Shown here piece by piece: positions 3,169 through 35,974 of a stretch of DNA of 64,000 nt. Origin of the DNA: Odiellus spinosus (lineage: Eukaryota > Arthropoda > Arachnida > Opiliones > Phalangiidae); the NCBI GenBank assembly GCA_963920705.1, contig CAWUCO010000197.1, positions 1 through 64,000 on the forward strand. Reading direction: 5' to 3'. Made by a program: the position numbers and the translations under genes. Positions within the stretch are counted from its first letter, which is position 1; every line of letters starts with the position of its first letter. Under the pieces are notes generated by a model. That model was not told the origin of the DNA and did no database searches. It saw nothing but the letters and a program-made list of their open reading frames with translations.

Positions 3169-3447
3169 AAAATTGTGACAAATATAAAATTGGTTAAAAT
3201 TAAGCAAAAACGCTTAAAAATCCAAGATTATTGGATTAAAATGGACACAAAACTTTTGATTTTTAAGCGATTTAGACAAAATTAAGACCACTCGAAAGAC
3301 CAAATTTTGGTCTATCTAAAAAACAAGAGTTTTGGAAAATCCGTTGAAAAACATGGAAAATATGGACAATTCAAAAAACATCTAATATCAAAAAGCGAAT
3401 TTTAAAAATCTGAAATTTGACTATTTTGATATTCTATGATTTCTTGA

Positions 3448-13700: not shown

Positions 13701-16250
13701 CAATTCAAGAAATCATACAATATCAAAATGGTCAAATTTCAGATTTTCAAAATTCGCTTTTTGATATTAGATGTTTTTTGAATTGGCCATATTTTTCTTG
13801 TTTTTCAACGGATTTTTGAAAACTCTTATTATTTAGACTGTCCATTAATTGCTCTTTCGAATGACTTTGGTTTTGTCTAAATTGCAAAATTGTGACAAAT
13901 ATAAAATTGGTTAAAATTAAGCAAAAACGCCTAAAAATCCAAGATTATTGGATTCAAATGGACGCAAAACTTTTGAATTTTAAGCGATTTAGACAAAATT
14001 AAGACCACTCGAAAGACCAAATTTTGGTCTATCTAAAAAACAATAGTTTTGGAAAATCCGTTGAAAAACAAGAAAAAAATGGCCAATTCAAGAAATCATA
14101 CAATATCAACATAGTCAAATTTCAGATTTTAAAAATTCGCTTTTTGATATTAGATGTTTTTTGAATTGTCCATATTTTCCATGTTTTTCAACGGATTTTC
14201 CAAAACTCTTGTTTTTTAGATAGACCAATATTTGCTCTTTCGAGTGGTCTTAATTTTGTCTAAATCGCTTAAAAATCAAAAGTTTTGTGTCCATTTGAAT
14301 CCAATAATCTTGGATTTTTAAGCGTTTTTGCTTAATTTTAACCAATTTTATATTTGTCACAATTTTGCAATTTAGACAAAACCAAAGTCATTCGAAAGAG
14401 CAATTAATGGACAGTCTAAATAATAAGAGTTTTCAAAAATCCGTTGAAAAACAAGAAAAATATGGCCAATTCAAGAAATCATAGAATATCAAAATAGTCA
14501 AATTTCAGATTTTCAATATTCGCTTTTTGATATTAGATGTTTTTTGAATTGTCCATATTTTCCATGTTTTTCAACGGATTTTTGAAAACTCTTATTATTT
14601 AAACTGTCCATTAATTGTTCTTTCGAATGACTTTGGTTTTGTCTAAATTGCAAAATTGTGACAAATATAAAATTGGTTAAAATTAAGCAAAAACGCTTAA
14701 AAATCCAAGATTATTGGATTCAAATGGACACAAAACTTTTGAATTTTAAGCGATTTAGACAAAATTAAGACCACTCGAAAGACCAAATTTTGGTCTATCT
14801 AAAAAACAATAGTTTTCAAAAATCCGTTGAAAAACATGGAAAATATGGACAATTCAAAAAACATCGAATATCAAAAAGCGAATTTTTAAAATCTGAAATT
14901 TGACTATTTTGTTATTGTATGATTTCTTGAATTGGCCATATTTTTCTTGTTTTTCAACGGATTTTCCAAAGCTATTGTTTTTAGATAGACCAAAATTTGG
15001 TCTTTCGAGTGGTCTTAATTTTGTCTAAATCGCTTAAAATTCAAAAGTTTTGTGTCCATTTGAATCCAATAATCTTGGATTTTTAAGCGTTTTTGCTTAG
15101 TTTTAACCAATTTAATATTTGTCACAATTTTGCAATTTAGACAAAACCAAAGTCATTCGAAAGAGCAATTAATGGACAGTCTAAATAATAAGAGTTTTCA
15201 AAAATCCGTTGAAAAACAAGAAAAATATGGCCAATTCAAGAAATCATGGAATATCAAAATAGTCAAATTTCAGATTTTCAAAATTCGCTTTTTGATATTA
15301 GATGTTTTTTGAATTGTCCATATTTTCCATGTTTTTCAACGGATTTTCCAAAACTCTTGTTTTTTAGATAGACCAATATTTGCCCTTTCGAGTGGTCTTA
15401 ATTTTGTCTAAATCGCTTAAAAATCAAAAGTTTTGTGTCCATTTGAATCCAATAATCTTCGATTTTTAAGCGTTTTTGCTTAATTTTAACCAATTTTATA
15501 TTTGTCACAATTTTGCAATTTAGACAAAACCAAAGTCATTCGAAAGAGCAATTAATGGACAGTCTTAATAATAAGAGTTTTCAAAAATCCGTTGAAAACC
15601 AAGAAAAATATGGCCAATGCAAGAAATCATACAATATCAAAATAGTCAAATTTCAGATTTTCAAAATTCGCTTTTTGATATTAGATGTTTTTTGAATTGT
15701 CCATATTTTCCATGTTTTCAACGGATTTTTGAAAAATCTTATTATTTAGACTGTCCATTAATTGCTCTTTCGAATGACTTTGGTTTTGTCTAAATTGCAA
15801 AATTGTGACAAATATAAAATTGGTTAAAATTAAGCAAAAACGCTTAAAAATCCAAGATTATTGTATTCAAAGGGACACAAAACTTTTGAATTTTAAGCGA
15901 TTTAGACAAAATTAAGACCACTCGAAAGAGCAAATATTGGTCTATCTAAAAAACAAGAGTTTTGGAAAATCCGTTGAAAAACATGGAAAATATGGACAAT
16001 TCAAAAAACATCTAATATCAAAAAGCGAATTTTGAAAATCTGAAATTTGACTATTTTGATATTGTATGATTTCTTGAATTGGCCATATTTTTCTTGTTTT
16101 TCAACGGATTTTCCAAAACTATTGTTTTTTAGATAGACCAAAATTTGGTCTTTCGAGTGGTCTTAATTTTGTCTAAATCGCTTAAAATTCAAAAGTTTTG
16201 TGTCTATTTGAATCCAATAATCTTGGATTTTTAAGCGTTTTTGCTTAATT
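10716..16250. repeat. Satellite block of mixed orientation
   Basis: L linkers: 10880(+), 11236(-), 11646(+), 12016(+), 12385(-), 12790(+), 13150(-), 13555(+), 13936(+), 14297(-), 14705(+), 15065(-), 15450(-), 15855(+), 16215(-). Alternation is interrupted by same-direction pairs near 11.6-12.0, 13.6-13.9 and 15.1-15.4 kb. An unusual L variant near 11,970 reads attgccaaaacttgac instead of attgcaaaattgtgac. Variants are mostly single bases scattered without a clear long period. No non-satellite sequence was seen. Confidence 0.85.
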
Positions 16251-16256
16251 GAATTG
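16245..16256. other. Deletion junction inside the satellite (208 bp lost)
   Basis: Inverted L normally continues gcttaattttaaccaa, but here it reads gcttaatt and jumps straight to gaattggccat, the start of an inverted X1 arm. The missing part is the last 29 bp of L, a 106-bp arm and the 73-bp M, a total of 208 bp. The same junction recurs 1707 bp downstream. 1707 equals five monomers (1915) minus 208. Only about two bases of microhomology (tt) are visible at the joint. Confidence 0.9.
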
Positions 16257-17957
16257 GCCATATTTTTCTTGTTTTTCAACGGATTTTTGAAAACTCTTAT
16301 TATTTAGACTGTCCTTTAATTGCTCTTTCGAATGACTTTGGTTTTGTCTAAATTGCAAAATTGTGACAAACATAAAATTGGTGAAAATGAAGCAAAAACG
16401 CTTAAAAATCCAAGATTATTGGATTCAAATGGACACAAAACTTTTGATTTTTAAGCGATTTAGACAAAATTAAGACCACTCGAAAGAGCAAATATTGGTC
16501 TATCTAAAAAACAAGAGTTTTGGAAATTCCGTTGAAAAACATGGAAAATATGGACAATTCAAAAAACATCTAATATCAAAAAGCGAATTTTGAAAATCTG
16601 AAATTTGACTATTTTGATATTGTATGATTTCTTGAATTGGCCATATTTTTCTTGTTTTTCAACAGATTTTTGAAAACTATTGTTTTTTAGATAGACCAAA
16701 ATTTGGTCTTTCGAGTGGTCTTAATTTTGTCTAAATCGCTTAAAATTCAAAAGTTTTGTGTCCATTTGAATCCAATAATCTTGGATTTTTAAGCGTTTTT
16801 GCTTAATTTTAACCAATTTTATATTTGTCACAATTTTGCAATTTAGACAAAACCAAAGTCATTCGAAAGAGCAATTAATGAACAGTTTAAATAATAAGAG
16901 TTTTCAAAAATCCGTTGAAAAACATGGAAAATATGGACAATTCAAAAAACATCTAATATCAAAAAGCGAATTTTGAAAATCTGAAATTTGACTATTTTGA
17001 TATTCTATGATTTCTTGAATTGGCCATATTTTTCTTGTTTTTCAACGGATTTTTGAAAACTCTTATTATTTAGACTGTCCATTAATTGCTCTTTCGAATG
17101 ACTTTGGTTTTGTCTAAATTGCAAAATTTTGACAAATCTAAAATTGGTTAAAATTAAGCAAAAACGCTTAAAAATCCAAGATTATTGGATTCAAATGGAC
17201 ACAAAACTTTTGAATTTTAAGCGATTTAGACAAAATTAAGACCACTCGAAAGAGCAAATATTGGTCTATCTAAAAAACAAGAGTTTTGGAAAATCCGTTG
17301 AAAAACATGGAAAATATGGACAATTCAAAAAACATCTAATATCAAAAAGCGAATTTTGAAAATCTGAAATTTGACTATTTTGATATTGTATGATTTCTTG
17401 AATTGGCCATATTTTTCTTGTTTTTCAACGGATTTTTGAAAACTCTTATTATTTAGACTGTCCATTAATTGCTCTTTCGAATGACTTTGGGTTTGTCTAA
17501 ATTGCAAAATTGTGACAAATATAAAATTGGTTAAAATTAAGCAAAAACGCTTAAAAATCCAAGATTATTGGATTCAAATGGACACAAAACTTTTGATTTT
17601 TAAGCGATTTAGACAAAATTAAGACCACTCGAAAGAGCAAATATTGGTCTATCTAAAAAACAAGAGTTTTGGAAAATCCGTTGAAAAACATGGAAAATAT
17701 GGACAATTCAAAAAACATCTAATATCAAAAAGCGAATTTTGAAAATCTGAAATTTGACTATTTTGATATTGTATGATTTCTTGAATTGGCCATATTTTTC
17801 TTGTTTTTCAACGGATTTTCCAAAACTATTGTTTTTTAGATAGACCAAAATTTGGTCTTTCGAGTGGTCTTAATTTTGTCTAAATCGCTTAAAATTCAAA
17901 AGTTTTGTGTCTATTTGAATCCAATAATCTTGGATTTTTAAGCGTTTTTGCTTAATT
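16251..17957. repeat. Higher-order repeat B, copy 1 (1707 bp, five monomers with a deletion)
   Basis: L linkers near 16410(+), 16770(-), 17175(+), 17560(+) and 17920(-). Markers recurring at +1707 are actgtcctttaattgc just after the junction, tgtctatttgaatcc (16201 and 17908) and gacaaatctaaaattgg (17131 and 18838). Similarity also extends upstream of the junction to about 15.7 kb, so the unit boundary chosen here is the deletion joint for convenience. Confidence 0.88.
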
Positions 17958-17963
17958 GAATTG
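17952..17963. other. Second copy of the 208-bp deletion junction
   Basis: gcttaatt is again joined directly to gaattggccat. Identity of the joint with that at 16,250 shows that the deletion came first and was then copied as part of the 1707-bp unit. Confidence 0.9.
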
Positions 17964-19490
17964 GCCATATTTTTCTTGTTTTTCAACGGATTTTTGAAAA
18001 CTCTTATTATTTAGACTGTCCTTTAATTGCTCTTTTTAATGACTTTGGTTTTGTCTAAATTGCAAAATTGTGACAAATATAAAATTGGTTAAAATAAAGC
18101 AAAAACGCTTAAAAATCCAAGATTATTGGATTCAAATGGACACAAAACTTTTGATTTTTAAGCGATTTAGACAAAATTAAGACCACTCGAAAGAGCAAAT
18201 ATTGGTCTATCTAAAAAACAAGAGTTTTGGAAAATCCGTTGAAAAACATGGAAAATATGGACAATTCAAAAAACATCTAATATCAAAAAGCGAATTTTGA
18301 AAATCTGAAATTTGACTATTTTGATATTGTATGATTTCTTGAATTGGCCATATTTTTCTTGTTTTTCAACGGATTTTTGAAAACTATTGTTTTTTAGATA
18401 GACCAAAATTTGGTCTTTCGAGTGGTCTTAATTTTGTCTAAATCGCTTAAAATTCAAAAGTTTTGTGTCCATTTGAATCCAATAATCTTGGATTTTTAAG
18501 CGTTTTTGCTTAATTTTAACCAATTTTATATTTGTCACAATTTTGCAATTTAGACAAAACCAAAGTCATTCGAAAGAGCAATTAATGGACAGTTTAAATA
18601 ATAAGAGTTTTCAAAAATCCGTTGAAAAACATGGAAAATATGGACAATTCAAAAAACATCTAATATCAAAAAGCGAATTTTGAAAATCTGAAATTTGACT
18701 ATTTTGTTATTCTATGATTTCTTGAATTGGCCATATTTTTCTTGTTTTTCAACGGATTTTTGAAAACTCTTATTATTTAGACTGTCCATTAATTGCTCTT
18801 TCGAATGACTTTGGTTTTGTCTAAATTGCAAATTTGTGACAAATCTAAAATTGGTTAAAATTAAGCAAAAACGCTTAAAAATCCAAGATTATTGGATTCA
18901 AATGGACACAAAACTTTTGAATTTTAAGCGATTTAGACAAAATTAAGACCACTCGAAAGAGCAAATATTGGTCTATCTAAAAAACAAGAGTTTTGGAAAA
19001 TCCGTTGAAAAACATGGAAAATATGGATAATTCAAAAAACATCTAATATCAAAAAGCGAATTTTGAAAATCTGAAATTTGACTATTTTGATATTGTATGA
19101 TTTCTTGAATTGGCCATATTTTTCTTGTTTTTCAACGGATTTTTGAAAACTCTTATTATTTAGACTGTCCATTAATTGCTCTTTCGAATGACTTTGGTTT
19201 TGTCTAAATTGCAAAATTGTGACAAATATAAAATTGGTTAAAAATAAGCAAAAACGCTTAAAAATCCAAGATTATTGGATTCAAATGGACACAAAACTTT
19301 TGAATTTTAAGTGATTTAGACAAAATTAAGACCACTCGAAAGAACAAATATTGGTCTATCTAAAAAACAAGAGTTTTGGAAAATCCGTTGAAAAACATGG
19401 AAAATATGGACAATTCAAAAAACATCTAATATCAAAAAGCGAATTTTGAAAATCTGAAATTTGACTATTTTGATATTGTATGATTTCTTG
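17958..19490. repeat. Higher-order repeat B, copy 2 (partial)
   Basis: It matches 16,251 onward for about 1.5 kb, with L linkers at 18120(+), 18475(-), 18890(+) and 19270(+). Private differences include gctctttttaatgac at about 18,027 and aaaataaagc at about 18,091. The aaaataaagc variant also appears at 28,251, after another deleted unit, which suggests a historical link between these loci. Similarity ends near 19,490, where copy 1 has an X2-type arm and this copy has X1. Confidence 0.82.
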
Positions 19491-19871
19491 AATTGGCCAT
19501 ATTTTTCTTGTTTTTCAACGGATTTTTGAAAACTCTTATTATTTAGACTGTCCATTAATTGCTCTTTCGAATGACTTTGGTTTTGTCTAAATAGCAAAAT
19601 TGTGACAAATATAAAATTGGTTAAAAATAAGCAAAAACGCTTAAAAATCCAAGATTATTGGATTCAAATGGACACAAAACTTTTGAATTTTAAGCGATTT
19701 AGACAAAATTAAGACCACTCGAAAGAGCAAATATTGGTCTATCTAAAAAACAAGAGTTTTGGAAAATCCGTTGAAAAACATGGAACATATGGACAATTCA
19801 AAAACATCTAATATCAAAAAGCGAATTTTTAAAATCTGAAATTTGACTATTTTGATATTGTATGATTTCTT
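19107..19871 (+). repeat. Direct tandem pair of monomers
   Basis: Inverted X1 arms begin at 19107 and 19490, 383 bp apart, and the next arm begins at 19872 (one base lost in M, aaaaacatc near 19,800). L linkers 18890, 19270 and 19655 are all plus. Both monomers share gttaaaaataagcaaaaac, which differs from the usual gttaaaattaagc and recurs at 20,771. Confidence 0.85.
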
Positions 19872-21020
19872 GAATTGGCCATATTTTTCTTGTTTTTCAA
19901 CGGATTTTCCAAAACTATTGTTTTTTAGATAGACCAAAATTTGCTCTTTCGAGTGGTCTTAATTTTGTCTAAATCGCTTAAAAATCAAATGTTTTGTGCC
20001 CATTTGAATCCAATAATCTTGGATTTTTAAGCGTTTTTGCTTTATTTTAACCAATTTTATATTTTTCACAATTTTGCAATTTAGACAAAACCAAAGTCAT
20101 TCGAAAGAGCAATTAATGGACAGTTTAAATAATAAGAGTTTTCAAAAATCCGTTGAAAAACATGGAAAGTATGGACAATTCAAAAAACATCTAATATCAA
20201 AAAGCGAATTTTGAAAATCTGAAATTTGACTATTTTGATATTCTATGATTTCTTGAATTGGCCATATTTTTCTTGTTTTTCAACGGATTTTTGAAAACTC
20301 TTATTATTTAGACTGTCCATTAATTGCTCTTTCGAATGACTTTGGTTTTGTCTAAATTGCAAAATTGTGACAAATATAAAATTGGTTAAAATTAAGCAAA
20401 AACGCTTAAAAATCCAAGATTATTATATTCAAATGGACACAAAACTTTTGATTTTTAAGCGATTTAGACAAAATTAAGACCACTCGAAAGAGCAAATATT
20501 GGTCTATCTAAAAAACAAGAGTTTTGGAAAATCCGTTGAAAAACATGGAAAATATGGCCAATTCAAAAAACATCTAATATCAAAAAGCGAATTTTTAAAA
20601 TCTGAAATTTGACTATTTTGATATTGTATGATTTCTTGAATTGGCCATATTTTTCTTGTTTTTCAACGGATTTTTGAAAACTCTTATTATTTAGACTGTC
20701 CATTAATTGCTCTTTCGAATGACTTTGGTTTTGTCTAAATTGCAAAATTGTGACAAATATAAAATTGGTTAAAAATAAGCAAAAACGCTTAAAAATCCAA
20801 GATTATTGGATTCAAATGGACACAAAACTTTTGAATTTTAAGCGATTTAGACAAAATTAAGACCACTCGAAAGAGCAAATATTGGTCTATCTAAAAAACA
20901 AGAGTTTTGGAAAATCCGTTGAAAAACATGGAAAATATGGACAATTCAAAAAACATCTAATATCAAAAAGCGAATTTTTAAAATCTGAAATTTGACTATT
21001 TTGATATTGTATGATTTCTT
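19872..21020. repeat. 1149-bp trimer repeated at 21,021
   Basis: The inverted X2 arm followed by the unusual L variant atcaaatgttttgtgccc occurs at 19,984 and 21,133, exactly 1149 bp (three monomers) apart. L linkers: 20010(-), 20420(+), 20800(+). The second copy is recognisable to about 21.7 kb. Minor differences include ttattatattcaaatgg near 20,420. Confidence 0.85.
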
Positions 21021-24000
21021 GAATTGGCCATATTTTTCATGTTTTTCAACGGATTTTCCAAAACTATTGTTTTTTAGATAGACCAAAATTTGCTCTTTCG
21101 AGTGGTCTTAATTTTGTCTAAATCGCTTAAAAATCAAATGTTTTGTGCCCATTTGAATCCAATAATCTTGGATTTTTAAGCGTTTTTGCTTTATTTTAAC
21201 CAATTTTATATTTGTCACAATTTTGCAATTTAGACAAAACCAAAGTCATTCGAAAGAGCAATTAATGGACAGTTTAAATAATAAGAGTTTTCAAAAATCC
21301 GTTGAAAAACATGGAAAATATGGTCAATTCAAAAAACATCTAATATCAAAAAGCGAATTTTGAAAATCTGAAATTTGACTATTTTGATATTCTATGATTT
21401 CTTGAATTGGCCATATTTTTCTTGTTTTTCAACGGATTTTTGAAAACTCTTATTATTTAGACTGTCCATTAATTGCTCTTTCGAAAGACTTTGGTTTTGT
21501 CTAAATTGCAAAATTGTGACAAATATAAAATTGGTTAAAATTAAGCAAAAACGCTTAAAAATCCAAGATTATTGGATTCAAATGGACACAAAACTTTGGA
21601 ATTTTAAGCGATTTAGACAAAATTAAGACCACTCGAAAGACCAAATTTTGGTCTATCTAAAAAACAAGAGTTTTGGAAAATCCGTTGAAAAACATGGAAA
21701 ATATGGCCAATTCAAAAAACATCTAATATCAAAAAGCGAATTTTTAAAATCTGAAATTTGACTATTTTGATATTGTATGCTTTCTTGAATTGGCCATATT
21801 TTTCTTGTTTTTCAACGGATTTTCCAAAATTATTGTTTTTTAGATAGACCAAAATTTGGTCTTTCGAGTGGTCTTAATTTTGTCTAAATCGCTTAAAATT
21901 CAAAAGTTTTGTGTCCCTTTGAATCCAATAATCTTGGATTTTTAAGCGTTTTTGCTTAATTTTAACCAATTTTATATTTGTCACAATTTTGCAATTTAGA
22001 CAAAACCAAAGTCATTCGAAAGAGCAATTAATGGACAGTCTAAATAATAAGATTTTTCAAAAATCCGTTGAAAACATGGAAAATATGGACAATTCAAAAA
22101 ACATCTAATATCAAAAAGCGAATTTTGAAAATCTGAAATTTGACTATTTTGATATTGTATGATTTCTTGAATTGGCCATATTTTTCTTGGTTTTCAACGG
22201 ATTTTTGAAAACTCTTATTATTAAGACTGTCCATTAATTGCTCTTTCGAATGACTTTGGTTTTGTCTAAATTGCAAAATTGTGACAAATATAAAATTGGT
22301 TAAAATTAAGCAAAAACGCTTAAAAATCGAAGATTATTGGATTCAAATGGACACAAAACTTTTGATTTTTAAGCGATTTAGACAAAATTAAGACCACTCG
22401 AAAGAGCAAATATTGGTCTATCTAAAAAACAAGAGTTTTGGAAAATCCGTTGAAAAACATGGAAAATATGGACAATTCAAAAAACATCTAATATCAAAAA
22501 GCGAATTTTGAAAATCTGAAATTTGACTATTTTGATATTCTATGATTTCTTGAATTGGCCATATTTTTCTTGTTTTTCAACGGATTTTTGAAAACTCTTA
22601 TTATTTAGACTGTCCATTAATTGCTCTTTCGAATGACTTTGGTTTTGTCTAAATTGCAAAATTGTGACAAATATTAAATTGGTTAAAATTAAGCAAAAAC
22701 GCTTAAAAATCCAAGATTATTGGATTCAAATGGACACAAAACTTTTGAATTTTAAGCGATTTAGACAAAATTAAGACCACTCGAAAGACCAAATTTTGGT
22801 CTATCTAAAAACAATAGCTTTGGAAAATCCGTTGAAAAACAAGAAAAATATGGCCAATTCAAGAAATCATACAATAACAAAATAGTCAAATTTCAGATTT
22901 TAAAAATTCGCTTTTTGATATTCGATGTTTTTTGAATTGTCCATATTTTCCATGTTTTTCAACGGATTTTTGAAAACTATTGTTTTTTAGATAGACCAAA
23001 ATTTGGTCTTTCGAGTGGTCTTAATTTTGTCTAAATCGCTTAAAATTCAAAAGTTTTGTGTCCATTTGAATCCAATAATCTTGGATTTTTAAGCGTTTTT
23101 GCTTAATTTTAACCAATTTTATATTTGTCACAATTTTGAAATTTAGACAAAACCAAAGTCATTCGAAAGAACAATTAATGGACAGTTTAAATAATAAGAG
23201 TTTTCAAAAATCCGTTGAAAAACATGGAAAATATGGACAATTCAAAAAACATCTAATATCAAAAAGCGAATATTGAAAATCTGAAATTTGACTATTTTGA
23301 TATTCTATGATTTCTTGAATTGGCCATATTTTTCTTGTTTTTCAACGGATTTTTGAAAACTCTTATTATTTAGACTGTCCATTAATTGCTCTTTCGAATG
23401 ACTTTGGTTTTGTCTAAATTGCAAAATTGTGACAAATATAAAATTGGTTAAAATTAAGCAAAAACGCTTAAAAATCCAAGATTATTGGATTCAAATGGAC
23501 ACAAAACTTTTGATTTTTAAGCGATTTAGACAAAATTAAGACCACTCGAAAGAGCAAATATTGGTCTATCTAAAAAACAAGAGTTTTGGAAAATCCGTTG
23601 AAAAACATGTAAAATATGGACAATTCAAAAAACATCTAATATCAAAAAGCGAATTTTTAAAATCTGAAATTTGACTATGTTGATATTGTATGATTTCTTG
23701 AATTGGCCATTTTTTTCTTGTTTTTCAACGGATTTTCCAAAACTATTGTTTTTTAGATAGACCAAAATTTGGTCTTTCGAGTGGTCTTAATTTTGTCTAA
23801 ATCGCTTAAAATTCAAAAGTTTTGCGTCCATTTGAATCCAATAATCTTGGATTTTTAGGCGTTTTTGCTTAATTTTAACCAATTTTATATTTGTCACAAT
23901 TTTGCAATTTAGACAAAACCAAAGTCATTCGAAAGAGCAATTAATGGACAGTCTAAATAATAAGAGTTTTCAAAAATCCGTTGAAAAACAAGAAAAATAT

Positions 24001-25051
24001 GGCCAATTCAAAAAACATCTAATATCAAAAAGCGAATTTTGAAAATCTGAAATTTGACTATTTTGATATTGTATGATTTCTTGAATTGGCCATATTTTTC
24101 TTGTTTTTCAACGGATTTTCCAAAACTATTGTTTTTTAGATAGACCAAAATTTGGTCTTTCGAGTGGTCTTAATTTTGTCTAAATCGCTTAAAATTCAAA
24201 AGTTTTGTGTCCATTTGAATCCAATAATCTTGGATTTTTAAGCGTTTTTGCTTAATTTTAACCAATTTTATATTTGTCACAATTTTGCAATTTAGACAAA
24301 ACCAAAGTCATTCGAAAGATCAATTAATGGACAGTTTAAATAATAAGAGTTTTCAAAAATCCGTTGAAAAACATGGAAAATATGGACAATTCAAAAAACA
24401 TCTAATATCAAAAAGCGAATTTTGAAAATCTGAAATTTGACTATTTTGATATTCAATGATTTCTTGAATTGGCCATATTTTTCTTGTTTTTCAACGGATT
24501 TTTGAAAATCTTATTATTTAGACTGTCCATTAATTGCTCTTTCGAATGACTTTGGTTTTGTCTAAATTGCAAAATTGTGACAAATATAAAATTGGTTAAA
24601 ATTAAGCAAAAACGCTTAAAAATCCAAGATTATTGGATTCAAATGGACACAAAACTTTTGAATTTTAAGCGATTTAGACAAAATTAAGACCACTCGAAAG
24701 ACCAAATTTTGGTCTATCTAAAAAACAATAGTTTTGGAAAATCCGTTGAAAAACAAGAAAAATATGGCCAATTCAAGAAATCATACAATATCAAAATAGT
24801 CAAATTCCAGATTTTAAAAATTCGCTTTTTGATATTAGATGTTTTTTGAATTGTCCATATTTTCCATGTTTTTCAACGGATTTTCCAAAACTATTGTTTT
24901 TTAGATAGACCAAAATTTGGTCTTTCGAGTGGTCTTAATTTTGTCTAAATCGCTTAAAATTCAAAAGTTTTGTGTCCATTGGAATCCAATAATCTTGGAT
25001 TTTTAAGCGTTTTTGCTTAATTTTAACCAATTTTATATTTGTCACAATTTT
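21021..25051. repeat. Satellite block of mixed orientation
   Basis: L linkers: 21160(-), 21570(+), 21925(-), 22330(+), 22710(+), 23070(-), 23480(+), 23840(-), 24220(-), 24635(+), 24980(-). No long period was evident by eye. Arms here include X1 heads with X2-type tails (for example about 23,190 and 24,340). At about 24,000 an X1 arm with its own tail is followed by M in the orientation normally next to X2. Nothing other than satellite was seen. Confidence 0.85.
24700..24714. other. 15-base palindrome in X2 allele (example)
   Basis: gaccaaattttggtc pairs 7 + 7 bases around one central base. It is one of two common X2 alleles. The other reads gagcaaatattggtc at the same place and breaks the outer part of the dyad. 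Both alleles are scattered through the whole window. Confidence 0.85.
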
Positions 25052-25157
25052 GCAATTTAGACAAAACCAAAGTCATTCGAAAGAGCAATTAATGGACAGT
25101 CTAAATAATAAGAGTTTTCAAAAATCCGTTGAAAAACAAGAAAAATATGGCCAATTC
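25052..25157 (+). repeat. Arm X1, representative copy
   Basis: This 106-bp arm runs from gcaatttagacaaaacc to tatggccaattc. It contains TTCGAA at 25076-25081, which X2 lacks (ctcgaa), and the shared 18-bp core at 25121-25138. Three A-tracts at arm positions 69-73, 81-85 and 90-94 are spaced about one helical turn apart. The arm can be read without stops from the TTG at 25050, but there is no evidence that it is a gene. Confidence 0.93.
25121..25138 (+). repeat. 18-bp core identical in both arm types
   Basis: aaaatccgttgaaaaaca occupies arm positions 70-87 and is the longest stretch without a difference between X1 and X2. The X2 copy in this monomer is at 25504-25521. Most chimeric arms switch from X1 type to X2 type, or the reverse, across it. 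It occurs in inverted orientation on the two sides of every M. It may be a preferred exchange site or a protein-binding site; neither is shown. Confidence 0.8.
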
Positions 25158-25230
25158 AAGAAATCATACAATATCAAAATAGTCAAATTTCAGATTTTAA
25201 AAATTCGCTTTTTGATATTAGATGTTTTTT
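25158..25230 (+). repeat. Linker M, representative copy
   Basis: This 73-bp linker lies between caattc and gaattg and is about 19% G+C. It is itself a degenerate palindrome: aatatcaaaa near its left end is answered by ttttgatatt near its right end. A frequent single-base difference, atacaat or atagaat, lies near its left end. M occurs in both orientations between arms of every type. Confidence 0.9.
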
Positions 25231-25367
25231 GAATTGGCCATATTTTTCTTGTTTTTCAACGGATTTTTGAAAACTCTTATTATTTAGACTGTCCATTAAT
25301 TGCTCTTTCGAATGACTTTGGTTTTGTCTAAATTGCAAAATTGTGACAAATATAAAATTGGTTAAAA

Positions 25368-25385
25368 TTAAGCAAAAACGCTTAA
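25368..25385. other. Small hairpin 1 in L
   Basis: ttaagc and gcttaa form a 6-bp stem around the loop aaaaac. It is conserved in nearly all L copies. A few copies change a stem base, such as aagctttttt near 32,104 and aaacgtttttgc near 61,584. Its copy number and orientation argue against a terminator role. Confidence 0.8.
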
Positions 25386-25386
25386 A

Positions 25387-25405
25387 AATCCAAGATTATT
25401 GGATT
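25387..25405. other. Small hairpin 2 in L
   Basis: aatccaa and ttggatt form a 7-bp stem around gatta, one base after hairpin 1. It is kept in most of the roughly 168 L copies. Confidence 0.8.
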
Positions 25406-25613
25406 CAAATGGACACAAAACTTTTAATTTTTAAGCGATTTAGACAAAATTAAGACCACTCGAAAGAGCAAATATTGGTCTATCTGAAAATCAAGAGTTT
25501 TGGAAAATCCGTTGAAAAACATGGAAAATATGGACAATTCAAAAAACATCTAATATCAAAAAGCGAATTTTGAAAATCTGAAATTTGACTATTTTGATAT
25601 TGTATGATTTCTT

Positions 25614-27996
25614 GAATTGGCCATATTTTTCTTGTTTTTCAACGGATTTTCCAAAACTATTGTTTTTTAGATAGACCAAAATTTGGTCTTTCGAGTGGTC
25701 TTAATTTTGTCTAAATCGCTTAAAAATCAAAAGTTTTGTGTCCATTTGAATCCAATAATCTTGGATTTTTAAGCGTTTTTGCTTAATTTTAACCAATTTT
25801 ATATTTGTCACAATTTTGCAATTTAGACAAAACCAAAGTCATTCGAAAGACAGTTTAAATAATAAGAGTTTTCAAAAATCCGTTGAAAAACATGGAAAAT
25901 ATGGACAATTCAAAAAACATCTAATATCAAAAAGCGAATTTTGAAAATCTGAAATTTGACTATTTTGATATTCTATGATTTCTTGAATTGGCCATATTTT
26001 TCTTGTTTTTCAACGGATTTTTGAAAACTCTTATTATTTAGACTGTCCATTAATTGCTCTTTCGAATGACTTTGGTTTTGTCATAATTGCAAAATTGTGA
26101 CAAATATAAAATTGGTTAAAATTAAGCAAAAACGCTTAAAAATCCAAGATTATTGAATTCAAATGGACACAAAACTTGTGATTTTTAAGCGATTTAGACA
26201 AAATTAAGACCACTCGAAAGAGCAAATATTGGTCTATCTAAAAAACAAGAGTTTTGGAAAATCCGTTGAAAAACATGGAAAATATGGACAATTCAAAAAA
26301 CATCTAATATCAAAAAGCGAATTTTGAAAATCTGAAATTTGACTATTTTGATATTCTATGATTTCTTGAATTGTCCATATTTTCCATGTTTTTCAACGGA
26401 TTTTTGAAAACTATTGTTTTTTAGATAGACCAAAATTTGGTCTTTAGAGTGGTCTTAATTTTGTCTAAATCACTTAAAATTCAAAAGTTTTGTGTCCATT
26501 TGAATCCAATAATCTTGGATTTTTAAGCGTTTTTGCTTAATTTTAACCAATTTTATATTTGTCACAATTTTGCAATTTAGACAAAACCAAAGTCATTCGA
26601 AAGAGCAATTAATGGACAGTTTAAATAATAAGAGTTTTCAAAAATCCGTTGAAAAACATGGAAAATATGGACAATTCAAAAAACATCTAATATCAAAAAG
26701 CGAATTTTGAAAATCTGAAATTTGACTATTTTGATATTGTATGATTTCTTGAATTGATCATATTTTTCTTGTTTTTCAACGGATTTTCCAAAACTATTGT
26801 TTTTTAGATAGACCAAAATTTGGTCTTTCGAGTGGTCTTAATTTTGTCTAAATCGCTTAAAAATCAAAAGTTTTGTGTCCATTTGAATCCAATAATCTTG
26901 GATTTTTAAGCGTTTTTGCTTAATTTTAACCAATTTTATATTTGTCACAATTTTGCAATTTAGACAAAACCAAAGTCATTCGAAAGAGCAATTAATGGAC
27001 AGTTTAAATAATAAGAGTTTTCAAAAATCCGTTGAAAAACATGGAAAATATGGACAATTCAAAAAACATCTAATATCAAAAAGCGAATTTTGAAAATCTG
27101 AAATTTGACTATTTTGATATTCTATGATTTCTTGAATTGGCCATATTTTTCTTGTTTTTCAACGGATTTTTGAAAACTCTTATTATTTAGACTGTCCATT
27201 AATTGCTCTTTCGAATGACTTTGGTTTTGTCATAATTGCAAAATTGTGACAAATATAAAATTGGTTAAAATTAAGCAAAAACGCTTAAAAATCCAAGATT
27301 ATTGGATTCAAATGGACACAAAACTTTTGATTTTTAAGCGATTTAGACAAAATTAAGACCACTCGAAAGAGCAAATATTGGTCTATCTAAAAAACAAGAG
27401 TTTTGGAAAATCCGTTGAAAAACATGGAAAATATGGACAATTCAAATAACATCTAATATCAAAAAGCGAATTTTGAAAATCTGAAATTTGACTATTTTGA
27501 TATTCTATGATTTCTTGAATTGTCCATATTTTCCATGTTTTTCAACGGATTTTTGAAAACTATTGTTTTTAGATAGACCAAAACTTGGTCTTTAGAGTGG
27601 TCTTAATTTTGTCTAAATCGCTTAAAATTCAAAAGTTTTGTGTCCATTTGAATCCAATAATCTTGGATTTTTAAGCGTTTTTGCTTAATTTTAACCAATT
27701 TTATATTTGTCACAATTTTGCAATTTAGACAAAACCAAAGTCATTCGAAAGAGCAATTAATGGACAGTTTAAATAATAAGAGTTTTCAAAAATCCGTTGA
27801 AAAACATGGAAAATATGGACAATTCAAAAAACATCTAATATCAAAAAGCGAATTTTGAAAATCTGAAATTTGACTATTTTGATATTGTATGATTTCTTGA
27901 ATTGGTCATATTTTTCTTGTTTTTCAACGGATTTTCCAAAACTATTGTTTTTTAGATAGACCAAAATTTGGTCTTTCGAGTGGTCTTAATTTTGTC
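25614..27996. repeat. Satellite block with a 1149-bp trimer duplication (family C)
   Basis: L linkers: 25750(-), 26145(+), 26500(-), 26890(-), 27295(+), 27650(-). The private variant tcataattgcaaaattg occurs at 26,081 and 27,230 (1149 apart), and ggtctttagagtgg at about 26,440 and 27,588. A matching segment lies 3663 bp downstream (gaattgatcat at 26,751 and 30,414). 3663 is ten monomers minus 167 bp, accounted for by the deletions near 28.0 kb. Confidence 0.85.
25845..25856. other. 12-bp deletion in an X1 arm
   Basis: The arm reads cgaaagacagtttaaat where others read cgaaagagcaattaatgg followed by acagtttaaat. Twelve bases are missing between two short ga repeats, as expected for slippage or microhomology-mediated loss. 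I saw this deletion only once. Confidence 0.85.
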
Positions 27997-28120
27997 ATTT
28001 AATGGACAGTCTAAATAATAAGAGTTTGCAAAAACCCGTTGAAAAACAAGAAAAATATGGCCAATTCAAGAAATCATACAATATCAAAATAGTCAAATTT
28101 CAAATTTTAAAAATTGAAAT
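27990..28120. other. Unit with two internal deletions
   Basis: At about 27,996 an inverted X2 arm ends at ttttgtc and jumps to atttaatggacag in an X1 arm, removing the arm end, the whole L and the first 35 bases of X1 (about 141 bp). About 110 bp later M stops at aaaaatt and continues gaaattggccat, losing about 25 bp. The next arm carries actgtcctttaattgc, the variant found after the 208-bp deletion joints at 16.25 and 17.96 kb. The truncation creates a 71-codon open frame (28002-28217) with no sign of being a gene. Confidence 0.85.
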
Positions 28121-29743
28121 TGGCCATATTTTTCTTGTTTTTCAACGGATTTTTGAAAACTCTTATTATTTAGACTGTCCTTTAATTGCTCTTTCGAATG
28201 ACTTTGGTTTTGTCTAAATTGCAAAATTGTGACAAATATAAAACTGGTTAAAATAAAGCAAAAACGCTTAAAAATCCAAGATTATTGGATTCAAATGGAC
28301 ACAAAACTTTTGATTTTTAAGCGATTTAGACAAAATTAAGACCACTCGAAAGAGCAAATATTGGTCTATCTAAAAAACAAGAGTTTTGGAAAATCCGTTG
28401 AAAAACATGGAAAATATGGACAATTCAAAAAATATCTAATATCAAAAAGCGAATTTTGAAAATCTGAAATTTGACTATTTTGATATTGTATGATTTCTTG
28501 AATTGGCCATATTTTTCTTGTTTTTCAACGGATTTTTGAAAACTATTGTTTTTTAGATAGACCAAAATTTGGTCTTTCGAGTGGTCTTAATTTTGTCTAA
28601 ATCGCTTAAAATTCAAAAGTTTTGTGTCCATTTGAATCCAATAATCTTGGATTTTTAAGCGTTTTTGCTTAATTTTAACCAATTTTATATTTGTCACAAT
28701 TTTGCAATTTAGACAAAACCAAAGTCATTCGAAAGAGCAATTAATGGACAGTTAAAATAATAAGAGTTTTCAAAAATCCGTTGAAAAACATGGAAAATAT
28801 GGACAATTCAAAAAACATCTAATATCAAAAAGCGAATTTTGAAAATCTGAAATTTGACTATTTTGATATTCTATGATTTCTTGAATTGGCCATATTTTTC
28901 TTGTTTTTCAACGGATTTTTGAAAACTCTTATTATTTAGACTGTCCATTAATTGCTCTTTCGAATGACTTTGGTTTTGTCTAAATTGCAAAATTGTGACA
29001 AATATAAAATTGGTTAAAATTAAGCAAAAACGCTTAAAAATCCAAGATTATTGGATTCAAATGGACACAAAACTTTTGAATTTTAAGCGATTTAGACAAA
29101 ATTAAGACCACTCGAAAGACCAAATTTTGGTCTATCTAAAAAACAATAGTTTTCAAAAATACGTCGAAAAACAAGAAAAATATGGCCAATTCAAGAAATC
29201 ATACAATATCAAAATAGTCAAATTTCAGATTTTCAAAATTCGCTTTTTGATATTAGATGTTTTTTGAATTGTCCATATTTTCCATGTTTTTCAACGGATT
29301 TTCCAAAACTCTTGTTTTTTAGATAGACCAATATTTGCTCTGTCGAGTGGTCTTAATTTTGTCTAAATCGCTTAAAATTCAAAAGTTTTGTGTCCATTTG
29401 AATCCAAAAATCTTGGATTTTTAAGCGTTTTTGCTTAATTTTAACCAATTTTATATTTGTCACAATTTTGCAATTTAGACAAAACCAAAGTCATTCGAAA
29501 GAGCAATTAATGGACAGTCTAAATAATAAGAGTTTTCAAAAATCCGTTGAAAAACAAGAAAAATATGGCCAATTCAAGAAATCATACAATATCAAAATAG
29601 TCAAATTTCAGATTTTAAAAATTCGCTTTTTAATATTAGATGTTTTTTGAATTGGCCATATTTTTCTTGTTTTTCAACGGATTTTTGAAAACTCTTATTA
29701 TTTAGACTGTCCATTAATTTCTCTTTTGAATGACTTTGGTTTT
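28121..29743. repeat. Alternating satellite block
   Basis: L linkers: 28280(+), 28635(-), 29045(+), 29405(-). The first part shares ggttaaaataaagcaaaaac and actgtcctttaattgc with 17.96-18.1 kb, about 10.2 kb upstream, so it was probably derived from the same deleted lineage. Unusual points: cagttaaaataataag near 28,750 and acgtcgaaaaac near 29,161, where the core is altered. Confidence 0.8.
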
Positions 29744-31260
29744 GTCTAAATTGCAAAATTGTGACAAATATAAAATTGGTTAAAATTAAGCAAAAACGCT
29801 TAAAAATCCAAGATTATTGGATTCAAATGGACACAAAACTTTTGATTTTTAAGCGATTTAGACAAAATTAAGACCACTCGAAAGAGCAAATATTGGTCTA
29901 TCTAAAAAACAAGAGTTTTGGAAAATCCGTTGAAAAACATGGAAAATATGGACAATTCAAAAAACATCTAATATCAAAAAGCGAATTTTGAAAATCTGAA
30001 ATTTGACTATTTTGATATTCTATGATTTCTTGAATTGTCCATATTTTCCATGTTTTTCAACGGATTTTTGAAAACTATTCTTTTTAGATAGACCAAAATT
30101 TGGTCTTTAGAGTGGTCTTAATTTTGTCTAAATCGCTTAAAATTCAAAAGTTTTGTGTCCATTTGAATCCAATAATCTTGGATTTTTAAGCGTTTTTGCT
30201 TAATTTTAACCAATTTTATATTTGTCACAATTTTGCAATTTAGACAAAACCAAAGTCATTCGAAAGAGCAATTAATGGACAGTTTAAATAATAAGAGTTT
30301 TCAAAAATCCGTTGAAAAACATGGAAAATATGGACAATTCAAAAAACATCTAATATCAAAAAGCGAATTTTGAAAATCTGAAATTTGACTATTTTGATAT
30401 TGTATGATTTCTTGAATTGATCATATTTTTCTTGTTTTTCAACGGATTTTCCAAAACTATTGTTTTTTAGATAGACCAAAATTTGGTCTTTCGAGTGGTC
30501 TTAATTTTGTCTAAATCGCTTAAAAATCAAAAGTTTTGTGTCCATTTGAATCCAATAATCTTGGATTTTTAAGCGTTTTTGCTTAATTTTAACCAATTTT
30601 ATATTTGTCACAATTTTGCAATTTAGACAAAACCAAAGTCATTCGAAAGAGCAATTAATGGACAGTTTAAATAATAAGAGTTTTCAAAAATCCGTTGAAA
30701 AACATGGAAAATATGGACAATTCAAAAAACATCTAATATCAAAAAGCGAATTTTGAAAATCTGAAATTTGACTATTTTGATATTCTATGATTTCTTGAAT
30801 TGGCCATATTTTTCTTGTTTTTCAACGGATTTTTGAAAACTCTTATTATTTAGACTGTCCATTAATTGCTCTTTCGAATGACTTTGGTTTTGTCATAATT
30901 GCAAAATTGTGACAAATATAAAATTGGTTAAAATTAAGCAAAAACGCTTAAAAATCCAAGATTATTGGATTCAAATGGACACAAAACTTTTGATTTTTAA
31001 GCGATTTAGACAAAATTAAGACCACTCGAAAGAGCAAATATTGGTCTATCTAAAAAACAAGAGTTTTGGAAAATCCGTTGAAAAACATGGAAAATATGGA
31101 CAATTCAAAAAACATCTAATATCAAAAAGCGAATTTTGAAAATCTGAAATTTGACTATTTTGATATTCTATGATTTCTTGAATTGTCCATATTTTCCATG
31201 TTTTTCAACGGATTTTTGAAAACTATTGTTTTTTAGATAGACCAAAATTTGGTCTTTCGA
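29744..31260. repeat. Distant copy of family C (offset 3663 bp)
   Basis: Matches about 26.1-27.6 kb: ggtctttagagtgg at about 30,103, gaattgatcat at 30,414 and tcataattgc at 30,893. L linkers 29810(+), 30165(-), 30550(-), 30960(+) repeat the order +, -, -, + seen at 26145-27295. Boundaries are approximate. Confidence 0.82.
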
Positions 31261-34260
31261 GTGGTCTTAATTTTGTCTAAATCGCTTAAAATTCAAAAGT
31301 TTTGTGTCCATTTGAATCCAATAATCTTGGATTTTTAAGCGTTTTTGCTTAATTTTAACCAATTTTATATTTGTCACAATTTTGCAATTTAGACAAAACC
31401 AAAGTCATTCGAAAGAGCAATTAATGGACAGTTTAAATAATAAGAGTTTTCAAAAATCCGTTGAAAAACATGGAAAATATGGACAATTCAAAAAACATCT
31501 AATATCAAAAAGCGAATTTTGAAAATCTGAAATTTGACTATTTTGATATTGTATGATTTCTTGAATTGGCCATATTTTTCTTGTTTTTCAACGGATTTTT
31601 GAAAACTCTTATTATTTAGACTGTCCATTAATTGCTCTTTCGAATGACTTTGGTTTTGTCTAAATTGCAAAATTGTGACAAATATAAAATTGGTTAAAAT
31701 TAAGCAAAATCGCTTAAAAATCCAAGATTATTGGATTCAAATGGACACAAAACTTTTGAATTTTAAGCGATTTAGACAAATTTAAGACCACTCGAAAGAC
31801 CAAATTTTGGTCTATCTAAAAAACAATAGTTTTCAAAAATCCGTTGAAAAACAAGAAAAATATGGCCAATTTAAGAAATCATACAATATCAAAATAGTCA
31901 AATTTCAGATTTTCAAAATTCGCTTTTCGATATTAGATGTTTTTTGAATTGTCCATATTTTCCATGTTTTTCAACGGATTTTCCAAAACTCATGTTTTTT
32001 AGATAGACCAATATTTGCTCTGTCGAGTGGTCTTAATTTTGTCTAAATCGCTTAAAATTCAAAAGTTTTGTGTCCATTTGAATCCAATAATCTTGGATTT
32101 TTAAGCTTTTTTGCTTAATTTTAACCAATTTTATATTTGTCACAATTTTGCAATTTAGACAAAACCAAAGTCATTCGAAAGAGCAATTAATGGACAGTCT
32201 AAATAATAAGAGTTTTCAAAAATCCGTTGAAAAACAAGAAAAATATGGCCAATTCAAGAAATCATAGAATATCAAAGTAGTCAAATTTCAGATTTTAAAA
32301 ATTCGCTTTTTGATATTAGATGTTTTTTGAATTGTCCATATTTTCCATGTTTTTCAACGGATTTTCCAAAACTCTTGTTTTTTAGATAGACCAATATTTG
32401 CTCTTTCGAGTGGTCTTAATTTTGTCTAAATCGCTTAAAAATCAAAAGTTTTTTGTCCATTTGAATCCAATAATCTTGGATTTTTAAGCGTTTTTGCTTA
32501 ATTTTAACCAATTTTATATTTGTCACAATTTTGCAATTTAGACAAAACCAAAGTCATTCGAAAGAGCAATTAATGGACAGTCTAAATAATAAGAGTTTTC
32601 AAAAATCCGTTGAAAAACAAGAAAAATATGGCCAATTCAAAAAACATCTAATATCAAAAAGCGAATTTTTAAAATCTGAAATTTGACTATTTTGATATTG
32701 TATGATTTCTTGAATTGGCCATATTTTTCTTGTTTTCAACGGATTTTTGAAAACTCTTATTATTTAGACTGTCCATTAATTGCTCTTTCGAATGACTTTG
32801 GTTTTGTCTAAATTGCAAAATTGTGACAAATATAAAATTGGTTAAAATTAAGCAAAAACGCTTAAAAATCCAAGATTATTGGATTCAAATGGACACAAAA
32901 CTTTTGAATTTTAAGCGATTTAGACAAAATTAAGACCACTCGAAAGACCAAATTTTGGTCTATCTAAAAAACAATAGTTTTGGAAAATCCGTTGAAAAAC
33001 AAGAAAAATATGGCCAATTCAAGAAATCATACAATATCAAAATAGTCAAATTTCAGATTTTCAAAATTCGCTTTTTGATATTAGATGTTTTTTGAATTGT
33101 CCATATTTTCCATGTTTTTCAACGCATTTTTGAAAACTCTTATTATTTAGACTGTCCATTAATTGCTCTTTCGAATGACTTTGGTTTTGTCTAAATTGCA
33201 AAATTGTGACAAATATAAAATTGGTTAAAATTAAGCAAAAACGCTTAAAAATCCAAGATTATTGGATTCAAATGGACACAAACTTTTGATTTTTAAGCGA
33301 TTTAGACAAAATTAAGACCACTCGAAAGAGCAAATATTGGTCTATCTAAAAAACAAGAGTTTTGGAAAATCCGTTGAAAAACATGGAAAATATGGACAAT
33401 TCAAAAAACATCTAATATCAAAAAGCGAATTTTGAAAATCTGAAATTTGACTATTTTGATATTCTATGATTTCTTGAATTGTCCATATTTTCCATGTTTT
33501 TCAACGGATTTTTGAAAACTATTGTTTTTTAGATAGACCAAAATTTGGTCTTACGAGTGGTCTTAATTTTGTCTAAATCGCTTAAAATTCAAAAGTTTTG
33601 TGTCCATTTGAATCCAATAATCTTGGATTTTTAAGCGTTTTTGCTTAATTTTAACCAATTTTATATTTGTCACAATTTTTCAATTTAGACAAAACCAAAG
33701 TCATTCGAAATGCAATTAATGGACAGTTTAAATAATAAGAGTTTTCAAAAATCCGTTGAAAAACAAGAAAAATATGGCCAATTCAAGAAATCATAGAATA
33801 TCAAAATAGTCAAATTTCAGATTTTAAAAATTCGCTTTTTGATATTAGATGTTTTTTGAATTGTCCATATTTTCCATGTTTTTCAACGGATTTTTGAAAA
33901 CTCTTATTATTTAAACTGTCCATTAATTGCTCTTTCGAATGACATTGGTTTTGTCTAAATTGCAAAATTGTGACAAATATAAAATTGGTTAAAATTAAGC
34001 AAAAACGCTTAAAAATCCAAGATTATTGGATTCAAATGGACACAAAACTTTTGAATTTTAAGCGATTTAGACAAAATTAAGACCACTCGAAAGAGCAAAT
34101 ATTGGTCTATCTAAAAAACAAGAGTTTTGGAAAATCCGTTGAAAAACATGGAAAATATGGACAATTCAAAAAACATCTAATATCAAAAAGCGAATTTTGA
34201 AAATCTGAAATTTGACTATTTTGATATTGTATGATTTCTTGAATTGGCCATATTTTTCTT
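31261..34260. repeat. Satellite block of mixed orientation
   Basis: L linkers: 31315(-), 31725(+), 32085(-), 32465(-), 32870(+), 33255(+), 33615(-), 34020(+). An X1 arm with its own tail is joined to M of the opposite orientation at about 32,630. An altered core (tcaacgcattttt) is at about 33,120, and an X1 arm at about 33,708 has lost two bases (cgaaatgcaatt). No longer period was evident. Confidence 0.85.
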
Positions 34261-34442
34261 GTTTTTCAACGGATTTTTCAAAACTATTGTTTTTTAGATA
34301 GACCAAAATTTGGTCTTTCGAGTGGTCTTAATTTTGTCTAAATCGCTTAAAATTCCAAAGTTTTGTGTCCATTTGAATCCAATAATCTTGGATTTTTAAG
34401 CGTTTTTGCTTAATTTTAACCAATTTTATATTTGTCACAATT

Positions 34443-35974
34443 TTGCAATTTAGACAAAACCAAAGTCATTCGAAAGAGCAATTAATGGACAGTCTAAATA
34501 ATAAGAGTTTTCAGAAATCCGTTGAAAAACAACAAAAATATGGCCAATTCAGGAAATCATACAATATCAAAATAGTCAAATTTCAGATTTTAAAAATTCG
34601 CTTTTTGATATTAGATGTTTTTTGAATTGGCCATATTTTTCTTGTTTTTCAACGGATTTTTGAAAACTCTTATTATTTAGACTGCCCATTAATTGCTCTT
34701 TCGAATGACTTTGGTTTTGTCTAAATTGCAAAATTGTGACAAATATAAAATTGGTTAAAATTAAGCAAAAACGCTTAAAAATCCAAGATTATTGGATTCA
34801 AATGGACACAAAACTTTTCAATTTTAAGCGATTTAGACAAAATTAAGACCACTCGAAAGAGCAAATATTGGTCTATCTAAAAAACAAGAGTTTTGGAAAA
34901 TCCGTTGAAAAACATGGAAAATATGGACAATTCAAAAAACATCTAATATCAAAAAGCGAATTTTGAAAATCTGAAATTTTATGATTTTGATATTGTATGA
35001 TTTCTTGAATTGGCCATATTTTTCTTGTTTTTCAACGGATTTTTCAAAACTATTGTTTTTTAGATAGACCAAAATTTGGTCTTTCGAGTGGTCTTAATTT
35101 TGTCTAAATCGCTTAAAATTCAAAAGTTTTGTGTCCATTTGAATCCAATATTCTTGGATTTTTAAGCGTTTTTGCTTAATTTTAACCAATTTTATATTTG
35201 TCACAATTTTGCAATTTAGACAAAACCAAAGTCATTCGAAAGAGCAATTAATGGACAGTCTAAATAATAAGAGTTTTCAAAAATCCGTTGAAAAACAACA
35301 AAAATATGGCCAATTCAAGAAATCATACAATATCAAAATAGTCAAATTTCAGATTTTAAAAATTCGCTTTTTGATATTAGATGTTTTTTGAATTGGCCAT
35401 ATTTTTCTTGTTTTTCAACGGATTTTTGAAAACTCTTATTATTTAGACTGTCCATTAATTGCTCTTTCGAATGACTTTGGTTTTGTCTAAATTGCAAAAT
35501 TGTGACAAATATAAAATTGGTTAAAATTAAGCAAAAACGCTTAAAAATCCAAGATTATTGGATTCAAATGGACACAAAACTTTTCAATTTTAAGCGATTT
35601 AGACAAAATTAAGACCACTCGAAAGAGCATATATTGGTCTATCTAAAAAACAAGAGTTTTGGAAAATCCGTTGAAAAACATGGAAAATATGGACAATTCA
35701 AAAAACATCTAATATCAAAAAGCGAATTTTGAAAATCTGAAATTTGACTATTTTGATATTGTATGATTTCTTGAATTGGCCATATTTTTCTTGTTTTTCA
35801 ACGGATTTTTCAAAACTATTGTTTTTTAGATAGACCAAAATTTGGTCTTTCGAGTGGTCTTAATTTTGTCTAAATCGCTTAAAATTCAAAAGTTTTGTGT
35901 CCATTTGAATCCAATAATCTTGGATTTTTAAGCGTTTTTGCTTAATTTTAACCAATTTTATATTTGTCACAATT
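34443..35974. repeat. Tetramer D, copy 1 (1532 bp, two inverted dimers)
   Basis: Part of the most regular block of the window (about 34,261-39,430), where the basic period is 766 bp: one minus and one plus monomer. Dimer markers at 766-bp steps are acaacaaaaatatggcc (34531, 35297, 36063, 36829, 37595, 38361), ggatttttcaaaactattg (34271 onward) and cttttcaattttaagcg (34815 to about 39,413). Alternate dimers differ, giving a 1532-bp unit. This copy has ttttcagaaatccg at 34,509 and gagcatatattgg at 35,625. Confidence 0.93.

Follow-up and report, generated by a model that had tools for sequence, protein, structure and literature searches.

Three insect satellites offer the closest described parallels to a monomer built from inverted segments. 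Tribolium brevicornis carries inverted segments of ~470 bp in a 1061-bp satellite (Mravinac et al. 2005, cited in PMC13081366) and Trichogramma brassicae has 80-bp inverted repeats in a 385-bp satellite (cited in PMC13081366), both being cited there as rare cases, while TmSat2 of Tribolium madens consists of a 704-bp monomer with inverted segments of ~300 bp (Veseljak et al. 2026, PMC13081366). According to the available part of the latter report, TmSat1 and TmSat2 change orientation within their arrays, predominantly as two opposed subarrays, and occupy megabase regions; their inversion sites are uniform within types, which was read as possibly functional, and macro-dyad symmetries formed by satellite arrays are, per its authors, documented only in Tribolium. 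The argument that inverted symmetry in centromeric satellites is functional rests partly on these uniform inversion sites (PMC13081366). A different kind of parallel is the Tetris foldback transposon, with TIR-220, of Drosophila virilis, in which tandem repeats lie in inverted arms, occur dispersed and also form satellite-like arrays (PMC4079207, as far as the available part describes them).

The satellite analyzed here, from Odiellus spinosus, shares with the published account of T. madens its long inverted subunits, in-array orientation changes and uniform inversion sites, but is set apart, by description, from the kilobase-long subarrays of that species in that single units and linkers face either way. 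Compared on the same descriptive footing, it resembles T. brevicornis in having a monomer of two long inverted segments, albeit of another unit length, and Trichogramma brassicae in its near-equal unit length (383 vs 385 bp) and inverted repeats within the monomer; its possible likeness to Tetris/TIR-220, one of arrangement, would lie in tandem repeats in inverted arrangement that are both dispersed and arrayed. A literature search covering titles and the starts of abstracts, with subscription papers mostly outside it, found no satellite with random orientation of single units, the available part of PMC12692304 held nothing on such an orientation, and six words of 14-20 bases taken from the unit had no hit in a search of literature text. 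By description, the satellite is of the same kind as those of Tribolium but differs in scale, with near-random scrambling of single units and linkers, which we did not find described. A single genome with directional, partly inverted and scrambled arrays provides a neutral baseline for testing claims that dyad symmetry is functional, and here a short identity tract can be named where switching concentrates.

The 383-bp unit and its facing arms

The window, by which we mean the whole stretch of 64,000 nucleotides analyzed, opens contig C197, whose 223,316 bp consist entirely of satellite, and covers its first 64 kb. TRF reported one array with a period of 383 bp at 206..64000 of the window (no strand assigned), and parsing the whole contig with four window-derived queries (arm A, arm B, the L loop and the M module) showed that the rest of C197 is the same 383-bp array, yielding 2,335 pieces (585 L, 581 M, 580 A and 589 B) with no gap of more than 60 bases. 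L modules of the commonest length (500/570) were 98.3% identical to their consensus and M modules of the commonest length (508/567) 98.5%. Throughout the assembly searched (443,074,358 bp in 286 contigs) the L loop gave 71,657 matches at up to 2 mismatches, compared with 0 for a reversed-pattern control; at 383 bp per match this would amount to ~27.4 Mb, 6.2% of the assembly. The array is satellite DNA, being long, homogeneous, tandem and of high copy number. Contig C6 likewise starts inside a satellite array.

The arrangement of the unit can be followed in the stretch 25052..25613. Arm A (X1) with its tip lies at 25055..25167 (plus strand) and is followed by the centre of an M module (25168..25221, no strand assigned) and by a second arm A, opposite the first across M (25222..25333, minus strand); the L loop, running from its A side to its B side, occupies 25334..25437 (plus strand), arm B (X2) with its tip 25438..25549 (plus strand), and the start of the next M module with the following arm 25550..25613 (no strand assigned). 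Each arm contains an 18-bp core, AAAATCCGTTGAAAAACA, which is the commonest site of module-identity switch and is found at 25121..25138 (plus strand) in the first arm A, at 25250..25267 (minus strand) in the second and at 25504..25521 (plus strand) in arm B.

A preliminary description of this DNA had proposed that homologous arms face each other across both L and M, and the coordinates and strands between 25055 and 25549, together with the arm alignment, agree with it; the homology of X1 and X2 was confirmed as well, while their match, given as 87/106, measured 85/106 over the first 106 positions for X1 at 25055 and 86/106 for the A copy left of L. The two clades that it predicted for X1 and X2 were recovered when 80 arms (40 A and 40 B) out of the 1,159 extracted were placed in a tree, one branch of which split A from B (100/100). 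Self-complementarity, which it had ascribed to both M and L, was found for the M module (score 155 against its own reverse complement, shuffle maximum 50) and for the M centre alone (61, shuffle maximum 48), but not for the L loop alone, whose score of 26 fell within its shuffles (mean 19.2, maximum 40); the entire L module scored 142 (200 shuffles: mean 25.5, maximum 49). L is thus a palindrome through its arms and M an imperfect palindrome end to end.

Predicted single-stranded folds reached -132.1 kcal/mol (z -29.6) for arm-M-arm at 25055-25345 and -81.7 kcal/mol (z -15.3) for arm-L-arm at 25228-25555, with no shuffle as low in either case, and these folds, joined to the gap-free parse of C197, uphold the unbroken chain of potential hairpins described earlier. 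The near-perfect arm-M-arm hairpin at 25055-25333 owes its quality to two adjacent units standing head to head. The array could in principle form long hairpins, for which no function need be assumed.

Across C197, A and B kept their fixed places beside L in all but 8 of the 585 L modules, 252 reading <A L+ B> and 325 <B L- A> (577 together). The 383-bp unit is therefore directional, with built-in inverted arms, and what had been called a palindromic monomer has the inverted homologous arms of one without being a true palindrome. Long inverted homologous subunits within the monomer, a feature of the Tribolium type, are present. The unit may be pictured as an imperfect palindrome with two axes, one through the L module (<A-L-B>) and one through the M module (tip a - tip b).

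Truncated units were noted in the window at about 16.1-16.3, 17.8-18.0 and 27.9-28.1 kb, where neighbouring cores lie 175 (two cases) or 218 apart vs the usual 129/254; in the parse an arm and M were missing at two places and one unit had no L piece.

Junction classes, the core and orientation in C197

We aligned 1,159 arms from the L edge to the M centre and gave each a two-letter label, the capital for its arm (A or B) and the small letter for the tip of the M module joined to it (a or b). This gave 314 Aa, 324 Bb, 256 Ab and 265 Ba junctions, the last two classes, taken as non-canonical, making up 521/1159. Diagnostic sites passed from L-linked to M-linked within arm columns 68-115: fixed A/B differences in columns 8-67 tracked the arm (Cramer's V 0.96-1.00), the arm association was lower in columns 77-78 (0.84 and 0.82), columns 79-96, which constitute the core, had zero fixed A/B differences, and columns 97, 99 and 109 tracked the tip at 0.80-0.82, as did the columns from 116 on at 0.99-1.00. 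The switch zone lies in or beside the 18-bp core. A switch at the core without other change was seen in 294 of the 521 non-canonical junctions (Ab 154/256, Ba 140/265), and a switch beside it in 135 (67 Ba between columns 67 and 77, and 68 Ab in columns 110-115), the other 92 being spread over small classes.

The core is also the longest run identical between the Aa and Bb consensus sequences, the next runs measuring 12, 12 and 10, and homology alone can therefore explain the position of the switch; the length of identity is the simplest reason for this site, with no protein site required. An enzyme inverting modules at the core by site-specific recombination would account for the fact that L and M modules both change partner there, yet we consider it very improbable, given that the core coincides with this longest identity run, that about a quarter of the non-canonical junctions (135/521) switch beside it, that no M flip between near-identical flanks was found in 196 comparisons (see below) and that the likeness of the unit to a CENP-B box is not above chance.

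The CENP-B box motif is NTTCGNNNNANNCGGGN. As a candidate feature of the unit it was rejected, the best match having 7/9 essential bases and at least 7 being reached by 42/300 shuffles.

Four variable sites between the L edge and the core (43, 49, 59 and 70) were linked to the tip. CTT at sites 43/49/70 was carried by 223/265 Ba arms vs 15/324 Bb arms, a tie between haplotype and Ba which argues against free and continuing switching at the core, and the 2 Ba junctions seen on contig C261 without this three-site haplotype point to at least two origins. C197 is thus built of modules joined through a few junction lineages, and array-level inversions with sites uniform within types, the second feature of the Tribolium type, are present. 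A few founders multiplied by ordinary exchange can explain such uniform inversion junctions.

Both L and M modules occurred in either orientation in C197. With the eight classes of M junctions summed, 161 M modules had both junctions canonical, 102 had both non-canonical, 155 were A-M-A and 163 B-M-B. In the window, L orientation formed 120 runs vs 84.0 expected (sd 6.4), and this excess of alternation accounts for the X1-M-X1-L-X2-M-X2 order of the preliminary description, which holds as a local state but not as an array-wide rule: beyond the window L orientation is random, with 105 runs vs 104.2 (sd 7.0) at 64-144 kb and 103 vs 102.9 (sd 7.0) at 144-223 kb. M orientation formed 91, 120 and 114 runs in the window, at 64-144 kb and at 144-223 kb, respectively, vs 84.3, 105.7 and 103.5 expected, a slight excess of alternation. 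Orientation in C197 is therefore near-random, and the whole-contig statistics depart from perfect randomness: L formed 326 runs vs 289.8 (z 3.0) and M 323 vs 291.8 (z 2.6), the L strands were unequal (328 to 257), and the doubly non-canonical class was deficient among both L (97/569, p 0.004) and M (102/578, p 0.019). Orientation words of 24 modules recurred in 31/1,142 cases vs 0 in one shuffle, and segments are therefore being duplicated.

These counts take the order and orientation of units in the assembled C197 on trust. Satellite contigs are error-prone, and three contigs sized in round thousands hint at cutting during scaffolding, so that orientation changes could have been made by the assembler; we find this hardly credible, for the changes follow one another at intervals of a few hundred bases, short enough for single reads to bridge if these were long, the same four junction types appear in the samples from C197, C100, C6 and C112, and the 562-bp stretch 25052..25613 has an exact copy at C157:117425-117986. 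The round sizes, suggestive of scaffolding cuts, are those of C100 (678,000), C112 (2,288,000) and C261 (6,235,000).

Turnover in C197 and directional relatives elsewhere

C197 matched itself over 1 kb or more at 99% in 21 direct pairs (median gap 1.6 kb) and 5 inverted ones. One inverted pair, C197:209314-213936 and 214005-218635, has 4.6-kb arms that are 99.2% alike and lie 68 bases apart around one M, and so forms a near-palindrome of 9.3 kb; its centre carries an old junction haplotype and it is therefore not a fresh fold-back, a reading of this palindrome that we set aside. Direct L pairs at short distance were often near-identical (41/334 at four units, for example), inverted ones seldom (4/242). 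Present turnover looks like local direct duplication accompanied by rarer inverted block duplication.

Flips of single modules were sought between near-identical flanks. None of 196 comparisons revealed an M flip between near-identical flanking L modules (56 of them were inverted copies of whole segments), and flips of a near-identical L between near-identical flanking M modules numbered 30/349, inside the range that 20 shuffles gave (11-32, mean 21.8); the latter is a weak test, as 18% of all pairs of M modules qualify as near-identical. These counts lend no support to recent flipping of single modules, and none of the comparisons in C197 captured an individual inversion. Near-identical L pairs across M were found in 0/313 inverted neighbours vs 7/259 direct ones, which indicates that scrambling is not recent at the scale of single units, and inverted L neighbours across M differed at 7.85 sites on average vs 7.38 overall, giving no indication that one arm of a hairpin is converted by the other.

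Elsewhere in the assembly the unit was found in arrays of another state. In the first 8 kb of C261 all 21 L units pointed the same way and M kept a single phase, and in the last 8 kb 17 L units pointed one way and 4 the other; of six 800-base samples from the interior of this contig, four were directional (three of these on the strand opposite to that of the C261 start), one had a single switch and one, at 5.4 Mb, had no satellite. Junctions were canonical in 91/96 cases in the C261 samples (5/96 non-canonical) and in 118/194 in the samples from C100, C6 and C112 (76/194 non-canonical). At C5:1.80-1.88 Mb, among the matches listed, 66/66 exact B-b words were on the plus strand and 7/7 exact A-a words on the minus strand, a strand pattern such as a directional array requires; the matches listed are incomplete as a source, a minus-strand copy at C6:357 being in the sequence and not among them.

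Exact 35-base words numbered, genome-wide, 42,834 for B-b, 49,923 for the A-a type (a word shared by Ab junctions with the switch downstream of the core and by Ba junctions with the switch upstream of it), 8,938 for Ba and 7,216 for Ab. Ba and Ab words together made up 14.8% of the sum genome-wide, 286/898 (31.8%) in C197 and 2/49 (4.1%) in the two ends of C261, and by these word and junction fractions the arrays of the genome form a range, with the scrambled window at one end. Directional and scrambled arrays of one unit coexist in the assembly.

The existence of directional arrays bears on the proposal that selection keeps the inverted arms, with hairpins or cruciforms marking or shaping (peri)centromeric chromatin. 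The authors of the T. madens report propose such a role for their own arrays (PMC13081366, available part), and the strong predicted hairpins and the high abundance of the present satellite (71,657 L-loop matches) are in keeping with it. We nevertheless judge it unlikely: facing arms in the directional arrays (the C261 samples and C5) are almost always A vs B, only ~81-82% alike, so that these arrays, made of the same unit within one genome, mostly lack near-perfect A-M-A hairpins; moreover, the 7.85 vs 7.38 differing sites speak against homogenization within hairpins, and a few founding junctions can yield uniform inversion sites.

In the seven other C261 samples satellite was present; the one at C261:5400001-5400800 (L061) is non-satellite and resembles, by eye, retrotransposon coding DNA.

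A proposed history of the satellite

We favour, as the probable course of events, an originally directional satellite with inverted arms in which rare inversions in or near the core occurred and exchange then spread a few junction lineages. As a first step, an ancestral element of ~170-190 bp would have come to lie in inverted pairs, the halves of which diverged to A/a and B/b. Head-to-tail arrays with only A-a and B-b junctions would have followed, a step supported by the arrays of this form that persist on C261 and C5. The third step would be the creation of the non-canonical A-b and B-a junctions, presumably through infrequent inversion or template switching between arms that face each other. 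Finally, unequal exchange may have multiplied a few junction lineages and, once both orientations were present, exchange between full-length inverted units could have inverted larger blocks; the few junction haplotypes, the local direct duplications and the rarer inverted duplications all suggest this last step. Its end state would be the near-random mix of L and M orientations seen in C197.

That the directional form came first we infer from one divergent array edge and from the canonical junctions. The mean pairwise difference between L modules was highest at the start of C261, at 8.6% vs 2.1-2.8% in five other samples; the end of C261, 2.4% divergent, is also mostly directional. The polarity is thus read from a single genome, in which one directional array end is only 2.4% divergent.

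A satellite derived from, or dispersed by, a foldback-type transposon that carried copies of the unit in tandem in its inverted ends, in the manner of Tetris/TIR-220, is possible though doubtful; it concerns origin and is compatible with the history we favour. Such an element would explain both the inverted arms and seven small loci on C1-C5 at which exact 35-base B-b words occur first on the minus strand and then on the plus strand (C1:33.02, C2:2.55, C2:8.47, C3:23.31, C4:19.30, C5:7.09 and C5:18.27 Mb), loci known from word positions, and Tetris of D. virilis is a published precedent (PMC4079207, available part). Some of these loci share their spacings: copies at C1:33,020,928 and C5:18,269,151 are both followed by others at +1275, +1776 and +2159 (spacings 1275/501/383), and those at C3:23,306,516 and C5:7,089,654 both by copies at +2664 and +3428. 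Segmental duplication or inserted pieces of satellite would, however, look alike, and we take the dispersed foldback-like copies as a hint of a transposon link. A fuller version, in which the satellite began as the arm repeats of a foldback element, both modules invert at the core and directional arrays decay to near-random binary strings, is more speculative still; were it true, the directional, partly inverted and scrambled arrays that stand side by side in this genome would make the path from an ordinary satellite to a dyad-symmetric array directly readable outside Tribolium.

A few observations were made on other parts of the assembly. Contig C286 (16,074 bp; L012 and L013) is the mitochondrial genome; its cox1 and cox2 genes adjoin, leaving no room for a tRNA, and the Rfam tRNA model gives only one tRNA at gathering score. 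On C17, at about 1.1-4.4 Mb, lie nine cox1-like matches, and four of these each contain two TAG codons; since TAG is a stop in the invertebrate mitochondrial code as well, these are probably nuclear copies of mitochondrial DNA. (TTAGG)n was seen, on the complement of the strand given, at two of twenty contig starts sampled; like the adjoining cox1 and cox2, it points to an arthropod and away from Tribolium. A minisatellite of ~22-23 bp, by eye AAGTATAGATTCACAAATTTCCC-like, was found at the starts of C8, C12, C15 and C16 (L039, L043, L046 and L047), four of the 20 contigs sampled.
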